Assembly: GCF_014645315.1 (NCBI RefSeq)
Contig: NZ_BMLQ01000001.1
Span: 1-34,756 of the forward strand
Source: Citricoccus zhacaiensis
Lineage (GTDB): Bacteria; Actinomycetota; Actinomycetes; Actinomycetales; Micrococcaceae
DNA: 34,756 nt
Reading direction: 5' to 3'
The notes beneath the pieces were generated by a model. The model was not told the origin of the DNA. It saw only the letters and a list, made by a program, of their open reading frames with translations, and ran no database searches. Positions 4,950-15,367 of the stretch are shown in pieces. Positions within the stretch are counted from its first letter, which is position 1. Each line of letters starts with the position of its first letter. A program made the translations under genes and the position numbers.

Positions 4950-6122
4950 TCAGCCGCCGATGGCGTTCATGCCGCGGCCGGGCTGGACGAAGTCCGGGTC
5001 GTCGATGCCGTGGCCGGCCTTCTTGGCGCCGACCGAGATCTTCATGGCCGCGGCCAGGTCGGCGTCCGAGGCGGAGCCAGCCAGTAGGGTCCGCAGATCG
5101 GTCTCCTCCCGGGCGAACAGGCAGTTGCGCATCTGCCCGTCAGCGGTGAGTCGCAACCGGTCACAGTCCCCGCAGAAGGGCTTCGAGACGGAGGCGATGA
5201 CGCCCACGGTGTGGGGGCCGCCGTCGACCGTGTAGAGCGCGGCCGGGGAGGAACCGCGGCCGGGGACCTCGGCGAGGTCGAAGCGCTCGGCGAGCCGGGC
5301 GAGGATCTCCTCGCCGGAGACCAGGTTGTCCCGCTTCCAGGTGTGCCCGGCGTCCAGAGGCATCTGTTCGATGAACCGCATCTGCGCGTCCTGGGACACG
5401 GCGAAGGCCACGAGGTCCGCCAGCTCGTCGTCGTTGACCCCGCGCATGGCGACCGCGTTGAGTTTGAGCGGGCGCAGCCCGGCGTCCCGGGCGGCGGCGA
5501 TCCCGGCCAGGACGTCCGCGTGCCGGTCACGGCGCGTCAGCTGACGGAACTTCTCCGGCTGGAGGGTATCGATGGAGATGTTCACGCGGGACAGCCCGGC
5601 CTCCTGCAGGGCGGGAAGCCGCCGGTCCAGGGTGATCCCGTTGGTGGTCATGGCCACCGGCAGGCACCCGCCCCCGGACGCCTCGGACAGCTCGATTCCG
5701 GCGAGCCGAGTCACGATGTCCTCGAGGTCCTGGCGCAGCAGCGGTTCACCGCCGGTCAACCGCACCCCGGTGATGCCGTGATCCACCGCGATCCGCACCA
5801 ACCGTTCAATCTCGGCGGCCGAGAGCAACTGGTCCTTCGGCATGAACGGGCCGGCATCCTCGGGCATGCAATACGTGCAGCGCAGCGAGCACTTGTCCGT
5901 CAGCGAGACGCGCAGGTCCCGGTGCACGCGTCCGAAACCGTCCGTCAAGGACCGGCCGGTCCCCTCATGGGGTCCGACGCCGGCAAGCTCGGCCGGGGTG
6001 GGCAGCAGCCGCCTGGCCTCGGGGCCGGGTGCCGGTGCTGACGCGGTGTCCGCAGCGCCGGTGGGGCGTGCGCCCGGCCCGGTCGCGGTCCGGGTGGTCA
6101 GAGTGATCGGCACCGAACTCAT
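4950..6122 (-). CDS. moaA: GTP 3',8-cyclase MoaA
   Basis: A radical-SAM enzyme that performs the first committed step of molybdopterin synthesis from GTP. The CxxxCxxC cluster motif reads CSLRCTYC, with TGGEPLL and the MTTNG motif following. The C-terminal second-cluster motif is C-x2-C-x13-C (CGDCDRLR through NC). The protein ends in Gly-Gly, needed for activity in characterised MoaA. I chose the ATG at 6122, giving 390 residues; it overlaps the moaE stop by four bases (ATGA), which indicates translational coupling. The first 60 residues or so before the TDGFGRVHRDLR core form an Ala/Pro/Thr-rich extension longer than in E. coli MoaA. Third gene of the minus-strand moaB-moaE-moaA operon. Confidence 0.94.
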   Translation of the reverse strand: MSSVPITLTTRTATGPGARPTGAADTASAPAPGPEARRLLPTPAELAGVGPHEGTGRSLTDGFGRVHRDLRVSLTDKCSLRCTYCMPEDAGPFMPKDQLLSAAEIERLVRIAVDHGITGVRLTGGEPLLRQDLEDIVTRLAGIELSEASGGGCLPVAMTTNGITLDRRLPALQEAGLSRVNISIDTLQPEKFRQLTRRDRHADVLAGIAAARDAGLRPLKLNAVAMRGVNDDELADLVAFAVSQDAQMRFIEQMPLDAGHTWKRDNLVSGEEILARLAERFDLAEVPGRGSSPAALYTVDGGPHTVGVIASVSKPFCGDCDRLRLTADGQMRNCLFAREETDLRTLLAGSASDADLAAAMKISVGAKKAGHGIDDPDFVQPGRGMNAIGG

Positions 6123-6625
6123 GGCAGTCCCACCCAGTGAGCCTCGCCGGAGGCGGTCTGTTGCTTCTTCCAGATCGGGACCTCGGCCTTGATGTCCTCC
6201 ACCACGGTCCGGCACACCTCAAAGGCTTCGGCCCGGTGCGCGGAGGCCACGGAGACCACCAGGGCGAGGTCGCCGACGTCGAGGTGTCCGATCCGATGCG
6301 CCGCGGCGACCCGAACCTCCCCGCGTGGGTCCCCGGGGCCGCGGACGTGACGCGCCACGATCTCCGTCAGCACGGCGTCCGCATCCGGATGCGCCGAATA
6401 GTCCAGCGAGGTCACGGTGCCGATGGCTTCCGGATCATGGTTCCGGACGATGCCGGTGAACGTCAAGGCCGCCCCGCAGGCGGAGGTCACGACGGAGGAT
6501 TCCAAGGCCACCGGGTCCAGGGGTTCCTCGGTCACCCCGGTGTGGACGGCTGCGGCCGACCGGGGTGCCGAGGCGAGCGTTGTCGGGACGGGCCGCACGG
6601 TGGCTGCATCCTCAGTGGCGGGCAT
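6119..6625 (-). CDS. moaE: MoaE, catalytic subunit of molybdopterin synthase
   Basis: MoaE transfers sulfur from MoaD thiocarboxylate to cyclic pyranopterin monophosphate. Visible family blocks are ALTFTGIVRNHD, LDYSAHPDADAVL, AAHRIGHLDVGDLALVVSVAS, HRAEAF and VPIWKKQ (the catalytic lysine region), ending in HWVG. I chose the ATG at 6625 (168 residues) because GGAGG (6634-6638) lies 8 bases upstream; a GTG at 6640 would add five residues. The start lies inside the 3' end of moaB (14-bp overlap), and the stop overlaps the moaA start by 4 bp. Residues 1-35 are an Ala/Thr-rich extension before the MoaE core. Confidence 0.92.
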   Translation of the reverse strand: MPATEDAATVRPVPTTLASAPRSAAAVHTGVTEEPLDPVALESSVVTSACGAALTFTGIVRNHDPEAIGTVTSLDYSAHPDADAVLTEIVARHVRGPGDPRGEVRVAAAHRIGHLDVGDLALVVSVASAHRAEAFEVCRTVVEDIKAEVPIWKKQQTASGEAHWVGLP

Positions 6626-7172
6626 GGTCGCCGCCTCCACCGAGTTGTTCGACCAGGTGCGCCAGCAGGGGCGCGAGCAGAGGGATGCTCTGGTCCGTGG
6701 CCCGCAGGGACCCGGGGAGGTTCACGACCACGGTGGGCTTGCTGCCCTGCCCGCCAGCTGTGGTTGACGTGGCTGCCGTGGCTGCCGTCGGATTCGCGCC
6801 CGCGGATCGGCCGATGATCCCGGCGCGTCCGCGTCCCAGGGCAGCGGTGGGGGTCTGCGAGGCACCCTCGCGGCGCAGCATCTCAGCGATGCCGGGCAAC
6901 TCCGTGCCGATGAGCCCGTCCATGGCCTCAGGCGTCAGGTCGCGCGGAGACACGCCGGTCCCGCCCAGGGTGATGACCACGTCTGCCCCGTTGCTCCGTG
7001 CCGTCCGGACACCGGACCGGACGGATTCGACCCCGTCCGCCACAACGGCCCCGTCCGCCGTCCACTCGCTCAGATACTGGGCCGCCAGCTCGAGAGCGCG
7101 CGGGCCCGCCGTATCCGCGGCCTGGCCCGCATGGGCCCGGTCGGAGACGGTCAAGATGTGGATGTGTGGCAT
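6612..7172 (-). CDS. moaB: MogA/MoaB-family molybdopterin adenylyltransferase
   Basis: A member of the MoaB/Mog fold that activates molybdopterin by adenylylation before molybdenum insertion by MoeA. Family motifs are HILTVSDRA at the N-terminus, DVVITLGGTGVSPRD with the conserved TGGTG-type loop, PGIAEMLRREG and VVNLPGS. A Ser/Thr/Ala/Gly-rich insert of about 25 residues (SAGANPTAATAATSTTAGGQ region) separates GRAGIIGR from the PTVVVNLPGS block, longer than usual. The ATG at 7172 has a Shine-Dalgarno GGGAGG four bases upstream; a TTG one codon earlier is less likely. First gene of the minus-strand operon, with a -10 box TAGACT (complement of 7194-7199). Confidence 0.88.
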   Translation of the reverse strand: MPHIHILTVSDRAHAGQAADTAGPRALELAAQYLSEWTADGAVVADGVESVRSGVRTARSNGADVVITLGGTGVSPRDLTPEAMDGLIGTELPGIAEMLRREGASQTPTAALGRGRAGIIGRSAGANPTAATAATSTTAGGQGSKPTVVVNLPGSLRATDQSIPLLAPLLAHLVEQLGGGGDHARH

Positions 7173-7193
7173 CAAACCTCCCAGCGTCTCTCG

Positions 7194-7199: not shown

Positions 7200-7316
7200 G
7201 GGTGACGAGGGCAGTCCGGCCAGCGCACCACCCAGCAGCACCCACCGGCACCACCTATGCGGACCGTGGCGGAGCCGCAGCACGGCTGCGACGCCGCGGG
7301 CGGTACCGTAGAGGAC

Positions 7317-8402
7317 GTGGAACACTCCTTCTCCCTGCATGCCGAATGGACCGGAAATCGGGGCTCCGGCACCTCCGGTTACAAGGACTACGGCCGTGAG
7401 CTCGTGGTCCGCGCCGAGGGCCCCGGCGAACTCAACGGCTCCGCCGCGCGGGCCTTCCACGGAAGCGACTCCCGGTGGAACCCCGAACAGCTCCTGCTCG
7501 CGGCCCTCGCCGAGTGCCACCTGCTGTCCTATCTCCAGGCCGCCACGCAGGCCGGGGTGGTCGTCACCGGCGCCTCCGTGCGCGCGGAGTGTGTGCTGAC
7601 CCATGACCACGACGGCGGCCGTGTCACCTCCGCGACCCTGGTCCCGGAGATCTGGCTCGCCGACGAGGACCAGCGCCGCACCGCGGACGGGCTGCACGCA
7701 AAGGCCCATCAGCAGTGCTTCATCGCCCGGTCCGTCAGCTTCCCTGTCACCATCAAACCCCAGCAGGTGCGCCGCCACCAGAACCAGAACCTGCCAGAGT
7801 TCGGCAGCCGCCTGGGCGCGCCCATCGCGGTGCTGAAACCGCGCCAGGGCAAGGCACCCAGCCAGGTGACCGGTCTGCAAGACCGGCCCGCCGCCTCGAC
7901 GGGTCACCGCCCGCCGCAGGTGATGGCTCCCGCCTCCGGCGCCGCTGCCAGCACCGGTGGTGGTGCTGGGGCCGCGGCCGGCGGAGGCGGAGCTGCTGGT
8001 GCTCGTGCCGATGCGGGAGCCCAGCCGGAGAACGCGAGCTTCTACGAGCAGGTCGGCGGGCACGAGACCTTCGTGAAGCTGGCCCGGGTGTTCTACGAGC
8101 AGGTCGCGGCGGACCCCGAGTTCAGGGCCATGTACCCAGAAGAGGATCTCGGCCCGGCCGAGGAACGGCTGCGGATGTTCCTGGAGCAGTACTGGGGCGG
8201 GCCGAAGACGTACAGCGAGCAACGCGGCCACCCTCGGCTGCGGATGCGGCACGCGCCCTACACCGTGGACTTCGCGGCCCGGGACACCTGGCTGCGGCAC
8301 ATGCGGGCAGCCGTGGATTCCCTCAACTTGGCACCGTTGCTGGAGGAGACCCTCTGGGACTACCTGGAGCGGGCCGCCCACTCGATGGTGAACTCGGCCT
8401 AG
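7317..8402 (+). CDS. OsmC-family peroxidase domain fused to group II truncated hemoglobin (GlbO type)
   Basis: A single frame encodes two domains. Residues about 1-150 are OsmC/Ohr-like, with [14 protein letters not shown] (Cys67) and [11 protein letters not shown] (Cys134), the two redox cysteines of thiol peroxidases of this family. Residues 150-235 are a linker that becomes Gly/Ala-rich. Residues about 238-361 closely match M. tuberculosis GlbO, with Tyr260 (B10), Tyr273 (CD1), the block [24 protein letters not shown] with proximal His312 (F8), and Trp325 (G8). I chose the GTG at 7317 (361 residues) because TACCGT (7304-7309) lies seven bases upstream, the leaderless pattern, and because the OsmC homologies begin there; ATG at 7257 would add 20 residues of non-family sequence. 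The fusion implies peroxide chemistry coupled to heme O2/ligand chemistry (inference). The stop overlaps the stop of the convergent gene. Confidence 0.85.
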
Positions 8403-9142: not shown

Positions 9143-9233
9143 TGTCCCATCGTCGGGCACCTGGGACAGATCACCTCGGCGATCCCTGGACGCCCCCCGG
9201 GCAGGTCAACGCGATGGTTCCACGCCGGCGGAG

Positions 9234-9239
9234 TAGACT
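9234..9239 (+). promoter_or_regulatory. -10 box of the thioesterase gene
   Basis: TAGACT lies about 82 bases before the tesB ATG, predicting a leader of roughly 75 nt. The leader's ribosome site is AAGGGG at 9311-9316. Confidence 0.4.
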
Positions 9240-9321
9240 GCCGGGACGGTTACCGGCCGGTACCGAGAGAGTCGGGCAGGCCGGATCAGCCGGGCGGCTC
9301 GGAGACAGCGAAGGGGCATTC

Positions 9322-10302
9322 ATGAGTACTGGCAAGGTCCACAAGGGGCGCAACGACTTCCCAGAGGATCCTACCGACGTGCTCCGCAGCGTCCTGGACC
9401 TGACCCCGGCTGGCGAGGACGCCGCCACGGGCGATCTCCTCTTCACCGGTGAGACCCCACCTCAGGCCCGCGGCCGTGTGTTCGGCGGGCAGGTCATGGC
9501 CCAGTCCCTGATGGCCGCCATCGCCACCGTGGACGGGGAGCGTGGCATCCACTCGATGCACGGGTACTTCCTCCGCCCCGGCAACGCCCTGCTGCCCATC
9601 ACCTTCGCGGTCGAGACCCTGCGTGACGGACGGTCCTTCTCGGCGCGTCGCGTCCAGGCGATGCAGGAGGGCAAGACCATCCTGTCCCTGATCAGCTCCT
9701 TCCAGGATCCGGTGTCCGGCCTGGACCACCAGTCCCCCATGCCCACGGCGGTACCCGACCCGGAATCCCTGCCGTCCACCTCGGACCGGCTCGGCCGGAT
9801 GCGTCACCCGATCGCGCAGGAGTGGTCCTGGGCCCGGCCCTTCGACATCCGGCACGTGGATCCACCCATCGAGATCGCGCCGGACCGGAGTGAGGTGGCC
9901 ACCAACATGGTGTGGATGAAGACGTTCTCCGCCATGGAGGGTAACGCGAACCTGCACCGGGCGGCCCTGGCCTATGCCTCGGACTACACCCTCCTCGAGC
10001 CAATCCTGCGCCGGCACGGCATCTCCTGGGTTCGGCCCGGGATCTCGGTCGCGTCCCTGGACCATGCCATGTGGTGGCACCGGCCGGCTCGCGTGGATGA
10101 GTGGCTGCTGTACGTCCAGTCCAGCCCCTCGGCTCAGGGCGCCCGCGGGCTCAGCAACGGGCGGATCTACTCGCGTGACGGTGAGCTGGTGGCCTCGGTG
10201 GCCCAGGAGGGGATGATCCGGGTGCCCGGCGACCTGCAGTACCGGGTCAAGAACTCGGTCCAGAGCCTGCTCCTGAAGGGCGCCGGCCGGCCACGTCGGT
10301 AG
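9322..10302 (+). CDS. tesB: Acyl-CoA thioesterase II (TesB family)
   Basis: Double hot-dog enzyme hydrolysing acyl-CoA to free fatty acid and CoA in the cytoplasm. The N-terminal hot-dog carries GRVFGGQVMAQSLMAA and SMHGYFLRPG, and the second carries ALAYASDYTLLEPI. The catalytic triad of E. coli TesB (Asp204, Thr228, Gln278) aligns by constant offset with Asp221, Ser245 and Gln295, so the usual Thr is Ser. At 326 residues it is slightly longer than E. coli TesB (286). The ATG at 9322 follows AAGGGG with a 5-base gap. The gene stands alone: the upstream gene is divergent, and the downstream cassette has its own promoter and a hairpin in between. Confidence 0.92.
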   Translation: MSTGKVHKGRNDFPEDPTDVLRSVLDLTPAGEDAATGDLLFTGETPPQARGRVFGGQVMAQSLMAAIATVDGERGIHSMHGYFLRPGNALLPITFAVETLRDGRSFSARRVQAMQEGKTILSLISSFQDPVSGLDHQSPMPTAVPDPESLPSTSDRLGRMRHPIAQEWSWARPFDIRHVDPPIEIAPDRSEVATNMVWMKTFSAMEGNANLHRAALAYASDYTLLEPILRRHGISWVRPGISVASLDHAMWWHRPARVDEWLLYVQSSPSAQGARGLSNGRIYSRDGELVASVAQEGMIRVPGDLQYRVKNSVQSLLLKGAGRPRR

Positions 10303-10380: not shown

Positions 10381-11223
10381 ATGGACGACGACACCCTGAC
10401 GACCACGCATGGTTCCGGGAACGCCGATCTCCTGACGGCGCTCGGCCCCTGGGACGGCCAGATCGTCTTCACGGCGGTCCACGCGGGCCACGGCCTGCGC
10501 CCTGAGGTCCGGGACCTGATGGTGCTGGACGAGGCCACCCGCTACCGCGAGGAGGACCCGCATACGGACCGGATCGGCTCGGGACTGGAATCGGGCATGG
10601 TCATGCACCGTTCCCGGTTCGAAACCGATCTCAACCGCGCACGCGACACCGCCGTGTACCTGGACCCGGAAGACTCCTGGGGCCTCCACGTCTGGAGGGA
10701 CGGCCAGTTGCCGGACGACGTCGCCGAGCGGAGCCGGCGGGTACACGATGCCTGGTACGAGGAGCTGGCGCACCGCATCGCCCCGATGGCCGCCCGGGGA
10801 CCCTTCGTGGTCTATGACCTGCACAGCTACAACTACCGCCGGGACGGTCCCGACGCCGGCCCAGCACCCCAGGAGGGGAACCCCGACGTGAACGTCGGGA
10901 CCGGATCCCTGGACCGCGAACCCTGGAACCCGGTGGTGGACGCCTTCATCGAGTCGATGTCCGCCGAGGTCATCCCGGCCACGGGACGCCGGCTTGATGT
11001 TCGCGAGAACGTCCGGTTCTGGGGTCAGAACGAGGGCCGCTGGGCCCACCGGCTGTTCCCGGACACCGCTTGCGTCCTGGCCCTGGAGTTCAAGAAGACC
11101 TTCATGGACGAGTGGACCGGAGAAGTCGACGAGGAGCACTTGGCGCAGCTGGCGGACGCCTTGGCACGTACCGTCCCGGCCGTCACCGCCGCGCTGGGGG
11201 AGGTCGAGGTGCCGACACCATGA
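10381..11223 (+). CDS. N-formylglutamate amidohydrolase-family hydrolase
   Basis: The family (PF05013, HutG type) hydrolyses amide-linked glutamate derivatives with a metal-bound water. Family landmarks are TAVHAGHG (His34, His37), REEDPHTD (57-63), DLNRARDTAVY and the SWGLHVWRD block, DLHSYNYR (Asp146, His148) and VLALEFKKTFMDEWTGE near the C-terminus. The protein has 280 residues. No histidine-degradation genes (hutU, hutI, hutH) are nearby, so a HutG role is unlikely; the partners are a DUF1704 peptidase and an ATP-grasp ligase. The ATG at 10381 follows TACGTT (10369-10374) by six bases, indicating a leaderless start; an ATG 15 codons upstream lies before this box and is unlikely. Its stop overlaps the next start by 4 bp (ATGA). 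Confidence 0.82.
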   Translation: MDDDTLTTTHGSGNADLLTALGPWDGQIVFTAVHAGHGLRPEVRDLMVLDEATRYREEDPHTDRIGSGLESGMVMHRSRFETDLNRARDTAVYLDPEDSWGLHVWRDGQLPDDVAERSRRVHDAWYEELAHRIAPMAARGPFVVYDLHSYNYRRDGPDAGPAPQEGNPDVNVGTGSLDREPWNPVVDAFIESMSAEVIPATGRRLDVRENVRFWGQNEGRWAHRLFPDTACVLALEFKKTFMDEWTGEVDEEHLAQLADALARTVPAVTAALGEVEVPTP

Positions 11224-12491
11224 GTGCCAAGAAGCCCACCAGCTCCGAGGACAAGAAGACCCGGCGCGATCAGGCCGAAGGCAAGCGCACCGAGGTCATG
11301 CGGAAGGACAGCACCCGAATCGACGGCCCGCGGGCCGTCGTCGGGCTCTCAACCCGGGACCGGGCGATCGACCATGAGTTGGCGTTGCTGTCCGGCTCCA
11401 TTCGGTTCCTGCTGGACATCACGCCGATGAACGTGGAGCAGGCACGTACCGAATTCCTCGCCACCGGCGAGTTGCCCGAGTTCGTCTACCGCGACGTGGT
11501 GGACGACCCCGAGGTGCTCAAGCGGGTGCTGCAGGACGTGCCGATCCATTTGGTGGACGATACGGTGCTGGGCACCTTACTGCGCAACAAGCACAAGGAG
11601 ATGTCCCTGCAGCTCGACATGCTCGCGGCCCGTGACACCGAGGACTTCATGCCGCTGAGTATCGAACTCTACGGGGCCATCCTTCCGGACCTGCGGCGCT
11701 CGGCCGAGTTGATCCTCGAAACGGTCACGGCCACGGAATCAGCGTCGGCGGGTAGCCTCGGGGCGAAGGAGATCCTCGATCTCGCCCGGGCGGAAATAGA
11801 CCATTACCGCAAGCAGGACCCGGACATCGAGATGCACGCCGAGATCCGCGACGACGTGTCCGGGGTGATGGTCTCGGGGAGTTCGCTGCTCCTGGGGCCC
11901 GAATCCAAGGTCCGGAAGGCCCGCGCGCACGCGCTGCTCCAGCACGAAGTCGGGACCCACCTGGTCACCCACTTCAACGGCTCAGCCCAGCCCATCAAGA
12001 TCCTCGGCACCGGGCTGGCCCGCTATGACGAGACGCAGGAGGGCCTGGCCGTGCTGGCGGAGGTAGCCTGCGGTGGGCTCACGGCCTTCCGGCTGCGGCA
12101 ATTGGCCTCCCGGGTACTGACGGTGCACCGCATGGTCACCGGGGCCACCTTCGCCGAAGCGCACGCGGCCCTCGTGGCGGACGGCGTCCCTGCCTCGTCC
12201 GCCTTCACCACCACCATGCGTGCGTACCGTGCCGGAGGGTTGACCAAGGACGCCATCTACTTGCGTGGCATGCTCGATCTCCTGGGGCACCTGCGCCGGG
12301 GAGGCAGCCTCGACCTGTTGCTGTTGGGCAAGTTCTCACTGGAGGACCTGCCGCTCATCGACGATCTCCAGGAGCGAGGAGTCCTGGAGCCGGCGATGCT
12401 CCAGCCTCGGTGGCTGGACGACCAGGACGCCACGGCCAGACTCGGCCGGGCTGCCGCATTGGACGACCCCACGGCGTTCGTCAACGCCTGA
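11220..12491 (+). CDS. DUF1704 / 'QEGLA motif' zinc metallopeptidase-like protein
   Basis: Annotated in databases, as I recall, as 'flavohemoglobin expression-modulating QEGLA motif protein' (TIGR02421, DUF1704). The same family contains the eukaryotic MATCAP tubulin tyrosine carboxypeptidases, so a bacterial carboxypeptidase-type activity is plausible. The 423-residue protein has the metal motif HEVGTH (residues 242-247) and, 27 residues later, QEGLA (273-277), whose Glu274 would be the third zinc ligand. The first 35 residues are Lys/Arg/Asp/Glu-rich and probably disordered. There is no signal peptide, so it acts in the cytoplasm. The ATG overlaps the stop of the upstream hydrolase (ATGA), implying co-translation. 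The substrate is unknown; the adjacent ATP-grasp ligase suggests it removes what the ligase adds (inference). Confidence 0.82.
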   Translation: MSAKKPTSSEDKKTRRDQAEGKRTEVMRKDSTRIDGPRAVVGLSTRDRAIDHELALLSGSIRFLLDITPMNVEQARTEFLATGELPEFVYRDVVDDPEVLKRVLQDVPIHLVDDTVLGTLLRNKHKEMSLQLDMLAARDTEDFMPLSIELYGAILPDLRRSAELILETVTATESASAGSLGAKEILDLARAEIDHYRKQDPDIEMHAEIRDDVSGVMVSGSSLLLGPESKVRKARAHALLQHEVGTHLVTHFNGSAQPIKILGTGLARYDETQEGLAVLAEVACGGLTAFRLRQLASRVLTVHRMVTGATFAEAHAALVADGVPASSAFTTTMRAYRAGGLTKDAIYLRGMLDLLGHLRRGGSLDLLLLGKFSLEDLPLIDDLQERGVLEPAMLQPRWLDDQDATARLGRAAALDDPTAFVNA

Positions 12492-12515
12492 GCACGTCCC
12501 GCGGACACGGTGCTC
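12490..12515 (+). terminator. Hairpin in the gap between the DUF1704 and ATP-grasp genes
   Basis: GAGCAC (12490-12495) pairs with GTGCTC (12510-12515), and inner GTCC/GGAC can pair with a small bulge. The rest of the 99-bp gap to 12590 is strikingly rich in C with few G, the composition favoured by Rho loading. It could be an attenuator that lowers expression of the ligase relative to the two upstream genes. No promoter box is clear. Confidence 0.35.
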
Positions 12516-12590
12516 GTCACTCCACACCGGCCGTCACCACCCCGGCACCACGCCCCCCGGCCCCCGGCCCCCCGAATGATCGGAGCACGT

Positions 12591-13634
12591 ATGAAAATCG
12601 GATTCGTTGTCAACGACGTGGCCACGGAGAAGCCCCACTACACGACCAACCGACTGGCCCTGGCCGCCACTCGGGCCGGCCATGAAGTCCTCCTGACCGG
12701 AACGGGAGACTTCGCCTATGAACCCGACGGCACCCTGTCCGTGCTGGCCCGCGGTGGGGCGGACAAGAACTACCGTTCCCTGGAGCGTTACCTACAGGAT
12801 ATCCAGCGACCGGCGACCGAGCGGCAGGTCGCCGTGAACGACTTCGATGTGGTGCTCCTGCGCAATGACCCGGCCGACGACGCCGTGGACCGGCCCTGGG
12901 CGCCCACCGCCGCCGTCGCCTTCGGCCAACTGATCACCGACTCCGGGGTGCTGGTGGCCAACGACCCCCACACCTTGGCCAACGCGCTGTCCAAGGCCTA
13001 CTTCCAACACTTCCCGGAGGCAGTACGTCCTCGCACGCTGATCTCCCGGGACGAATCCATGATCTCGGACTTCATCGATGACATGGGCGGCAAGGCCGTG
13101 CTCAAGCCGTTACAGGGGTCAGGCGGGTCGGGGGTGTTCCTGGTGAACCGCAAGGAGTCGCCCAACCTCTCGCAGATCATCGGGGCCATCGGTCGGGACG
13201 GCTACATCGTGGCCCAGGAGTACCTGCCGGAGGCCGAGAACGGCGACGTGCGCCTCTTCCTCCTGAACGGCCGGCCCCTCACGGTCAACGGGAAGATCGC
13301 CGCATTCCGCCGCCGGAACACGTCCAACGATGTCCGGTCGAACATGTCGGCCGGCGGAAACGCCGAACCGGTTGACCTCACCGACGAGATGCTGCACCTC
13401 GTGGAGGTCGTCCGGCCCAAGCTGGTGTCCGACGGGATGTTCCTGGTCGGCCTGGACATCGTGGGCGACAAGCTCATGGAGATCAACGTGTTCTCCCCGG
13501 GCGGACTGGGCTCCTGCCAGAGTCTCTACGGGGAGGACTTCGCCGTCGCGGTCATCGCTGACCTGGAGCGCAAGATGGACGTGCGGAAGCACTATGGGGA
13601 CACACTGCAGAACGCCCGGCTCGCGACCATCTGA
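12591..13634 (+). CDS. GshB-like ATP-grasp amide ligase
   Basis: ATP-grasp ligases of the glutathione synthetase/RimK group join an amino acid to a carboxylate through an acyl phosphate. The 347-residue protein starts MKIGFVVNDV with a GshB-like N-terminal domain. It shows AVLKPLQGSGGSGVF (Lys172, glycine loop), QEYLPEAENGDVRLF (Glu209, Asp219, Arg221) and MEINVFSPGG (Glu297, Asn299), which resembles the GshB Mg-binding EINVTSP. Actinobacteria generally use mycothiol rather than glutathione, and no gshA is seen, so true glutathione synthesis is unlikely. The ATG at 12591 has GGAG (12582-12585) five bases upstream. It lies 99 bp behind the DUF1704 gene on the same strand, with a hairpin between. 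It converges on ettA. Confidence 0.82.
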   Translation: MKIGFVVNDVATEKPHYTTNRLALAATRAGHEVLLTGTGDFAYEPDGTLSVLARGGADKNYRSLERYLQDIQRPATERQVAVNDFDVVLLRNDPADDAVDRPWAPTAAVAFGQLITDSGVLVANDPHTLANALSKAYFQHFPEAVRPRTLISRDESMISDFIDDMGGKAVLKPLQGSGGSGVFLVNRKESPNLSQIIGAIGRDGYIVAQEYLPEAENGDVRLFLLNGRPLTVNGKIAAFRRRNTSNDVRSNMSAGGNAEPVDLTDEMLHLVEVVRPKLVSDGMFLVGLDIVGDKLMEINVFSPGGLGSCQSLYGEDFAVAVIADLERKMDVRKHYGDTLQNARLATI

Positions 13635-13668: not shown

Positions 13669-15351
<1,683 letters not shown>

Positions 15352-15367
15352 GGGCCCAAGGCTAGTG

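Follow-up and report, generated by a model that had tools for sequence, protein, structure and literature searches.

A conserved FGase-like hydrolase, MATCAP-type peptidase and ATP-grasp ligase cassette in Citricoccus zhacaiensis, a candidate module for an amide-linked product

What might be made, and taken apart again, by a hydrolase, a peptidase and a ligase that are encoded side by side in an actinobacterium? The question is raised by a stretch of 34,756 nucleotides of Citricoccus zhacaiensis (contig NZ_BMLQ01000001.1, positions 1 to 34,756; hereafter the window). An earlier reading of the sequence alone (the sequence-only reading) had placed a hydrolase, a DUF1704 peptidase and an ATP-grasp ligase in a row at 10381-13634, and the places and families of all three open reading frames (ORFs) were confirmed. 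On the + strand they encode an FGase-like (PF05013) metallohydrolase (10381-11223; 280 aa, Pfam match and predicted model), a MATCAP/DUF1704 (TIGR02421-like) gluzincin peptidase (11220-12491; 423 aa, Pfam match) and a PRK12458-type ATP-grasp amide ligase with a predicted GshB fold (12591-13634; 347 aa, NCBIfam match). The proposed ATGA coupling of the first two genes was also found, at 11220-11223 (+), where the peptidase start overlaps the hydrolase stop. The ligase starts 99 nt past the peptidase stop, so the overlap is present at the first junction only; translation could also begin earlier, from an in-frame ATG at 12576.

The cassette is a genuine unit that is widely conserved, far beyond what chance would give. 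Our best explanation, held with about even confidence, is that it is a self-contained, horizontally mobile module of three enzymes by which one amide-linked product is formed and turned over in the cytosol. This product is more likely to be a short peptide or an amino-acid amide than a protein tag.

A three-gene unit conserved across genera and plasmids

When a genome collection was searched with an alignment of the peptidase, 450 relatives were found and the best 80 were retained (the named loci). These are the matches closest to the window protein, all actinobacterial by title, and thus not a sample of the whole family. The hydrolase, peptidase and ligase genes occur in the same order and on the same strand in 78 of the 80, whose genera include Micrococcus, Citricoccus, Nocardioides, Janibacter, Knoellia, Tessaracoccus, Microbacterium, Ornithinimicrobium and others. 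Two loci are incomplete. L080 starts near the peptidase, so that its hydrolase may be off the contig, and Tetrasphaera australiensis (L099, 9300-11133) has a cassette remnant with shortened hydrolase and peptidase matches and no ligase. The hydrolase match spans only 61-78 % of the profile in L090, L092 and L101, in the first and last of these over two ORFs. Among the 78 complete loci, a 4-nt start/stop overlap is found at the first junction in 67 (with a fusion in one), at the peptidase/ligase junction in 56 and at both in 49.

Tessaracoccus sp. SD287 (L087) encodes hydrolase and peptidase as a single protein, a fusion that a single-base error at the overlapping junction could mimic. The two are also fused in Photobacterium sp. 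DA100 and GJ3 (L106 and L193), where the ligase gene is immediately upstream, with its end running into the fused ORF. Together with a fused gene of Vibrio sp. HDW18 (see below), the three Vibrionaceae records support each other. A plasmid search with the peptidase matched 126 records, and four rhizobial ones (Sinorhizobium meliloti, Mesorhizobium, Shinella and Aminobacter) were read with their annotation. In all four, gene order and ATGA overlap are as in the window. The same arrangement and overlap were seen, by ORFs, in pSymB of S. meliloti 1021.

A further analysis covered 396 Actinomycetota genomes, drawn evenly and including that of the window. The peptidase family was present in 13 genomes and the ligase family, at 331 bits or more, in seven; the next ligase match scored 90 bits. 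All seven strong ligase matches lie directly downstream of a peptidase match, with 41-59 nt between match ends in six genomes and 153 nt in the window. The other six genomes with a peptidase gave no ligase match above 90 bits; five of them carry a subtype with an HEAYVH-like motif, and the remaining one (G217) a weaker relative. PF05013 was found in 29 of the 396 genomes, and in five of the seven cassette genomes its single match is inside the cassette.

Recurrent neighbours were looked for with ORFs of at least 90 aa from seven representative loci as queries and alignments of at least 70 residues. Shadow ORFs apart, no fourth gene recurred in more than 22 of the 86 other loci, and the highest counts reflect local synteny among loci like that of Nocardioides (L029). 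Mirror-tree correlations of the three genes were 0.88, 0.88 and 0.91 for 90 loci and 0.81-0.89 for 85 actinobacterial loci, of which common organismal descent alone would produce much. The sequence-only reading had allowed for the case that the three genes do not co-occur beyond close relatives. As the unit is conserved this widely, in the named loci, on rhizobial plasmids, beside every strong ligase match of the 396 genomes and in fusions, the reading is not refuted on that count.

Families, folds and residues of the three enzymes

The ligase matched PF02955 with 162.6 bits (cut-off 23) and passed PRK12458/NF009110 (436.4 against 408). It failed both glutathione synthase equivalogs, TIGR01380 (182.4 against 299.05) and PRK05246 (197.9 against 272), which the GshB of a Gordonia plasmid, used as a control, passed with 348.9 and 347.8; that gshB adjoins a glutamate-cysteine ligase family gene. 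The predicted model of the ligase (pLDDT 87) is nearest in fold to E. coli GshB (1gsa; TM 0.82/0.90, 27 % identity). RimK, the ribosomal protein S6 glutamate ligase, comes second (5zct; TM 0.67/0.79), yet the score of the ligase on the RimK family model (82.4) is under the cut-off of 143.4. The ATP-grasp residues K135, K172, R221, D289, E297 and N299, which are shared with GshB, are conserved across 93 cassette ligases, and the ligase is therefore probably active.

The cassette ligase differs from GshB in a loop after the metal-binding E-x-N, which we take to be located at the acceptor site. The TSPTG of GshB is FSPGG in the window ligase, and the 93 cassette ligases mostly have F-(S/T)-P-G-G (F in 96 %, G in 99 %), whereas the corresponding residues are T and T in all five GshB controls (four annotated gshB and one unannotated Sinorhizobium ORF). 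Further differences are an extra C-terminal tail, the lack of a gshA-type neighbour and a host with a mycothiol gene. With a GshB fold and an altered loop, the ligase probably forms a product other than glutathione, and judged by profile scores and loop it is not a typical glutathione synthetase, despite its NCBI subfamily name.

The mycothiol-type host assumed in the sequence-only reading is borne out by mshC, present above cut-off in the window genome. That reading also held a glutathione role to be unlikely, with a true glutathione synthetase and a gshA elsewhere in the genome as the findings that could overturn this view. The failed equivalogs and the changed loop speak for it. On gshA the result of a search that covered PF04262 and PF04107 is divided: no PF04262 gshA match was found in the window genome, and the genome does encode one PF04107 (GCS2-family) protein. 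This protein is of YbdK type and, with a 286-residue piece, also narrowly exceeds the cut-off of a model that bears the name glutamate--cysteine ligase (428.6 against 427).

The C-terminal tail of the ligase, N-x-x-L-A-T-x-COOH (codons at 13611-13631, +), was counted in 90 cassette ligases numbered from the last residue, with L106, L012 and L016 left out. N occupies position -7 in 89 of them, L position -4 in 82, A position -3 in 87 and T position -2 in 82, and the last residue is variable (commonest L with 39, then S with 21). An x-A-T-x ending is found in 80 of the 93 ligases. The tail is absent from the five GshB controls and from E. coli RimK. In the window ligase it is predicted to be ordered (pLDDT 93 in the last block), and the fixed distance of the motif from the free C-terminus suggests a role for the end of the chain itself. 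The ligases of L012 and L016, one family from genomes without a hydrolase match, have no tail. Both Photobacterium ligases end with A-T or A-A-T near the terminus and lack N at -7, though a hydrolase is present, so that a link between tail and hydrolase is a hint at most. A similar end was seen in a solitary cassette-type ligase on a plasmid of Ensifer sp. PDNC004 (L108, 6001-7047). Its gene adjoins a GNAT acetyltransferase gene, and a MATCAP match lies on another plasmid of the strain.

The peptidase matched PF08014 with 266.9 bits (cut-off 27). It scores below the cut-off of the QEGLA equivalog TIGR02421 (301.1 against 338.65), for which the Mesorhizobium homologue reaches 373.6. The two motifs named in the sequence-only reading were located, HEVGTH at residues 242-247 (11943-11960, +) and QEGLA at residues 273-277 (12036-12050, +), and H242, E243, H247 and E274 are invariant in 16 aligned peptidases. 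PF08014, HExxxH, (E/Q)EGLA and a KDxxYLxG motif are shared with the MATCAP/TMCP tubulin carboxypeptidases (KIAA0895L, 7z5g), although the similarity of KIAA0895L to the window peptidase is distant (E-value 3.2e-5). The bacterial enzyme differs by its ATP-grasp operon partner, and a tubulin substrate is not expected.

An N-terminal extension of about 240 residues is present on the rhizobial and two deep actinobacterial peptidases (L105, L022-L024, L014 and L015). It may be a hydrolase domain that has degenerated; when profiles of extension and hydrolase were compared, 137 columns aligned, at a probability of only 11 %. A second MATCAP subtype, with an HEAYVH-like motif replacing HEVGTH, was seen in other actinobacteria (L008-L011 and L013), with no ligase or hydrolase in the flanks covered, 1.5 kb or less on each side.

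The hydrolase is the sole PF05013 match of the genome (73 bits; cut-off 28.9). Residues H34, G36, H37, E57, H148, N151 and E236 do not vary in an alignment of 52 sequences that includes the window protein. Its predicted model (pLDDT 91.9) is nearest to the N-formylglutamate amidohydrolase folds 2q7s (TM 0.69) and 2odf, with TM 0.61-0.69 by model length and 15-16 % identity. Much weaker (TM 0.3-0.4) are M14-type carboxypeptidases, including 4b6z, and the poly-gamma-glutamate hydrolase 3a9l. No NCBIfam model matched the window hydrolase, TIGR02017 (HutG) gave no match at E 0.01, and the Mesorhizobium cassette hydrolase scored 22.8 against 278.75 on that model. HutG of the histidine pathway was therefore rejected as its identity. 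An orphan cassette-type hydrolase (G222; L188, 6256-7086, - strand) has neither a peptidase nor a ligase gene within about 6 kb. In Tessaracoccus antarcticus (L068, 8327-9139 and 9219-9986) the FGase-like gene is present as a tandem duplicate.

Candidate functions

In the module that we favour, the ATP-grasp ligase would activate a carboxylate with ATP and couple it to an amino acid or a small peptide. The MATCAP-family metallopeptidase would take the C-terminal residue off the product or its carrier, and the FGase-like metallohydrolase would cleave an N-acyl (glutamate-type) amide. We infer both the directions of these reactions and the cytosolic location of the enzymes.

Several points weigh against such a module. 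The hydrolase is missing in two of the seven cassette genomes (G089 and G103), with no PF05013 match anywhere in either. Parts of the cassette also occur alone: the fused hydrolase-peptidase of Vibrio sp. HDW18 (L192, 4965-6956), whose hydrolase domain has a DxHSYN motif with Y replacing H, has no ligase within 5 kb; the Ensifer ligase lacks the other two genes within 6 kb; and on two Pseudoalteromonas plasmids the gene of a distant MATCAP-family member has neither of its partners within 6-8 kb. The YbdK-type GCS2 enzyme of the genome could supply a gamma-glutamyl substrate for a glutathione-like product. Moreover, for none of the three enzymes do we know of a substrate, a product or an activity in bacteria.

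A different substrate is proposed if the cassette serves reversible protein tagging as a counterpart of the tubulin cycle, which we consider unlikely. The ligase would add an amino acid, perhaps glutamate, to a protein C-terminus and the MATCAP-type and FGase-like enzymes would remove it, and the conserved tail of the ligase itself could be a substrate or a regulatory mimic. The TTLLs of eukaryotes are ATP-grasp enzymes. Eukaryotic MATCAP/TMCP enzymes are reported to remove a C-terminal Tyr and to shorten the glutamate chains made by TTLLs (PMC10499314). The tail, with N at -7 and A at -3 nearly constant and found in none of the five GshB controls, is in keeping with this proposal, as is its absence from the two ligases of hydrolase-free genomes. 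However, no acceptor gene recurs nearby and the tail is predicted to be ordered, unlike an exposed tag. Both Photobacterium ligases have a hydrolase beside them and no N at -7, the neighbourless Ensifer ligase has a similar tail, and the known substrates of the FGase family are small. Quite unlikely in our view is the more specific version, a mobile write-and-erase operon resembling the tubulin code, in which a C-terminal ATP-grasp writer would be opposed by an eraser of MATCAP type together with one of carboxypeptidase-like fold, and the ligase tail would be the substrate or switch. Sequence features alone do not separate a protein tag from a small metabolite.

The ligase may instead be a true glutathione synthetase, or make a close analogue, from a gamma-glutamyl dipeptide supplied by YbdK, with the hydrolases recycling the product. 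E. coli GshB as the nearest fold, the NCBI subfamily name "glutathione synthetase" and the YbdK-type enzyme in the genome are consistent with this. We nevertheless regard it as very doubtful, as the ligase fails both equivalog cut-offs that the Gordonia GshB passes, its loop has F and G where the GshB controls have T and T, and the genome has no PF04262 GshA. The Gordonia gshB, in addition, stands beside a glutamate-cysteine ligase family gene, whereas the cassette has no recurrent fourth gene. Most doubtful of all is a catabolic or repair module, in which the hydrolases would degrade an N-acylated peptide or a damaged metabolite and the ligase would rebuild its useful part. Two of the three genes do encode hydrolases, these two fuse, and transporter or tailoring genes do not recur in the majority of loci, but in the 396 genomes this MATCAP subtype is always accompanied by the ATP-grasp gene, even where the hydrolase is missing.

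Two other candidates were rejected. Anti-phage defence was dismissed because the three proteins matched none of the PADLOC families, and a RiPP with its own precursor gene because no fourth gene (from ORFs of at least 90 aa) passed 22 of the 86 other loci.

Genomic site, related systems and implications

The peptidase was found in the window's genome and in six of seven congeners but was absent from all 51 genomes that represent other genera of the same family and order (59 genomes examined). In Citricoccus the cassette is placed between tesB, encoding acyl-CoA thioesterase II (9208-10302, +; Pfam and NCBIfam), and ettA, encoding the ABC-F protein EttA (13669-15354, -; Pfam and NCBIfam). These two genes adjoin each other in the congener G001, where a spacing of 38 nt marks the empty site. 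EttA of G001 is 98 % identical to that of the window, compared with 92-94 % in four cassette carriers (in G006 it is split between contigs), which suggests that G001 lost the cassette rather than that the carriers gained it recently. A thioesterase lies within 1.5 kb of the ettA 3' end in six of eight same-family genomes of other genera; it was not found near ettA in G011 and in G013, which ends at a contig edge. Overall, the module appears to be horizontally mobile.

Elsewhere in the window, a 381 aa ORF at 7257-8399 (+) combines an OsmC-like domain at residues 69-167 with, at residues 261-379, a bacterial truncated globin domain, both above the Pfam cut-off and linked by a glycine/alanine-rich stretch. 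A MoaA-type radical SAM protein, also above the Pfam cut-off, is encoded at 4950-7175 (-), and ORFs nearby resemble further molybdenum cofactor genes, as judged by eye only.

Among known systems, the N-acetylglutaminylglutamine amide (NAGGN) cassette likewise consists of an ATP-grasp ligase and a peptidase, the latter of a different family, and serves a small dipeptide. The ligase model of that cassette, TIGR03103, gave no match with the window ligase. In animals, PF08014 peptidases have microtubules as their target; for the bacterial relatives we know of no assigned function. Among the papers listed by the literature searches none was seen to describe the three genes together, though an earlier mention is possible, and none of the terms searched occurs in two ATP-grasp surveys (PMC4431377, PMC8939145).

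In a transcriptome study of Photobacterium damselae, genes for a "glutathione synthase" and a "QEGLA motif protein" with the successive tags A0J47_RS17020 and RS17025 are 38.4- and 27.5-fold up at 1 % versus 3 % NaCl (PMC10308900). By the gene order in the two other Photobacterium records, this salt-responsive pair may correspond to the ligase and the fused hydrolases, and the "GshB" gene of that study may thus be a cassette ligase.

The results tie one bacterial branch of PF08014 to one type of ATP-grasp ligase, and mostly to one type of hydrolase, in actinobacteria, rhizobia and Photobacterium. They give a reason not to read such ligases as second glutathione synthetases. The function is open to test, as the cassette is naturally absent from one congener of C. 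zhacaiensis and present in a laboratory species, Sinorhizobium meliloti.

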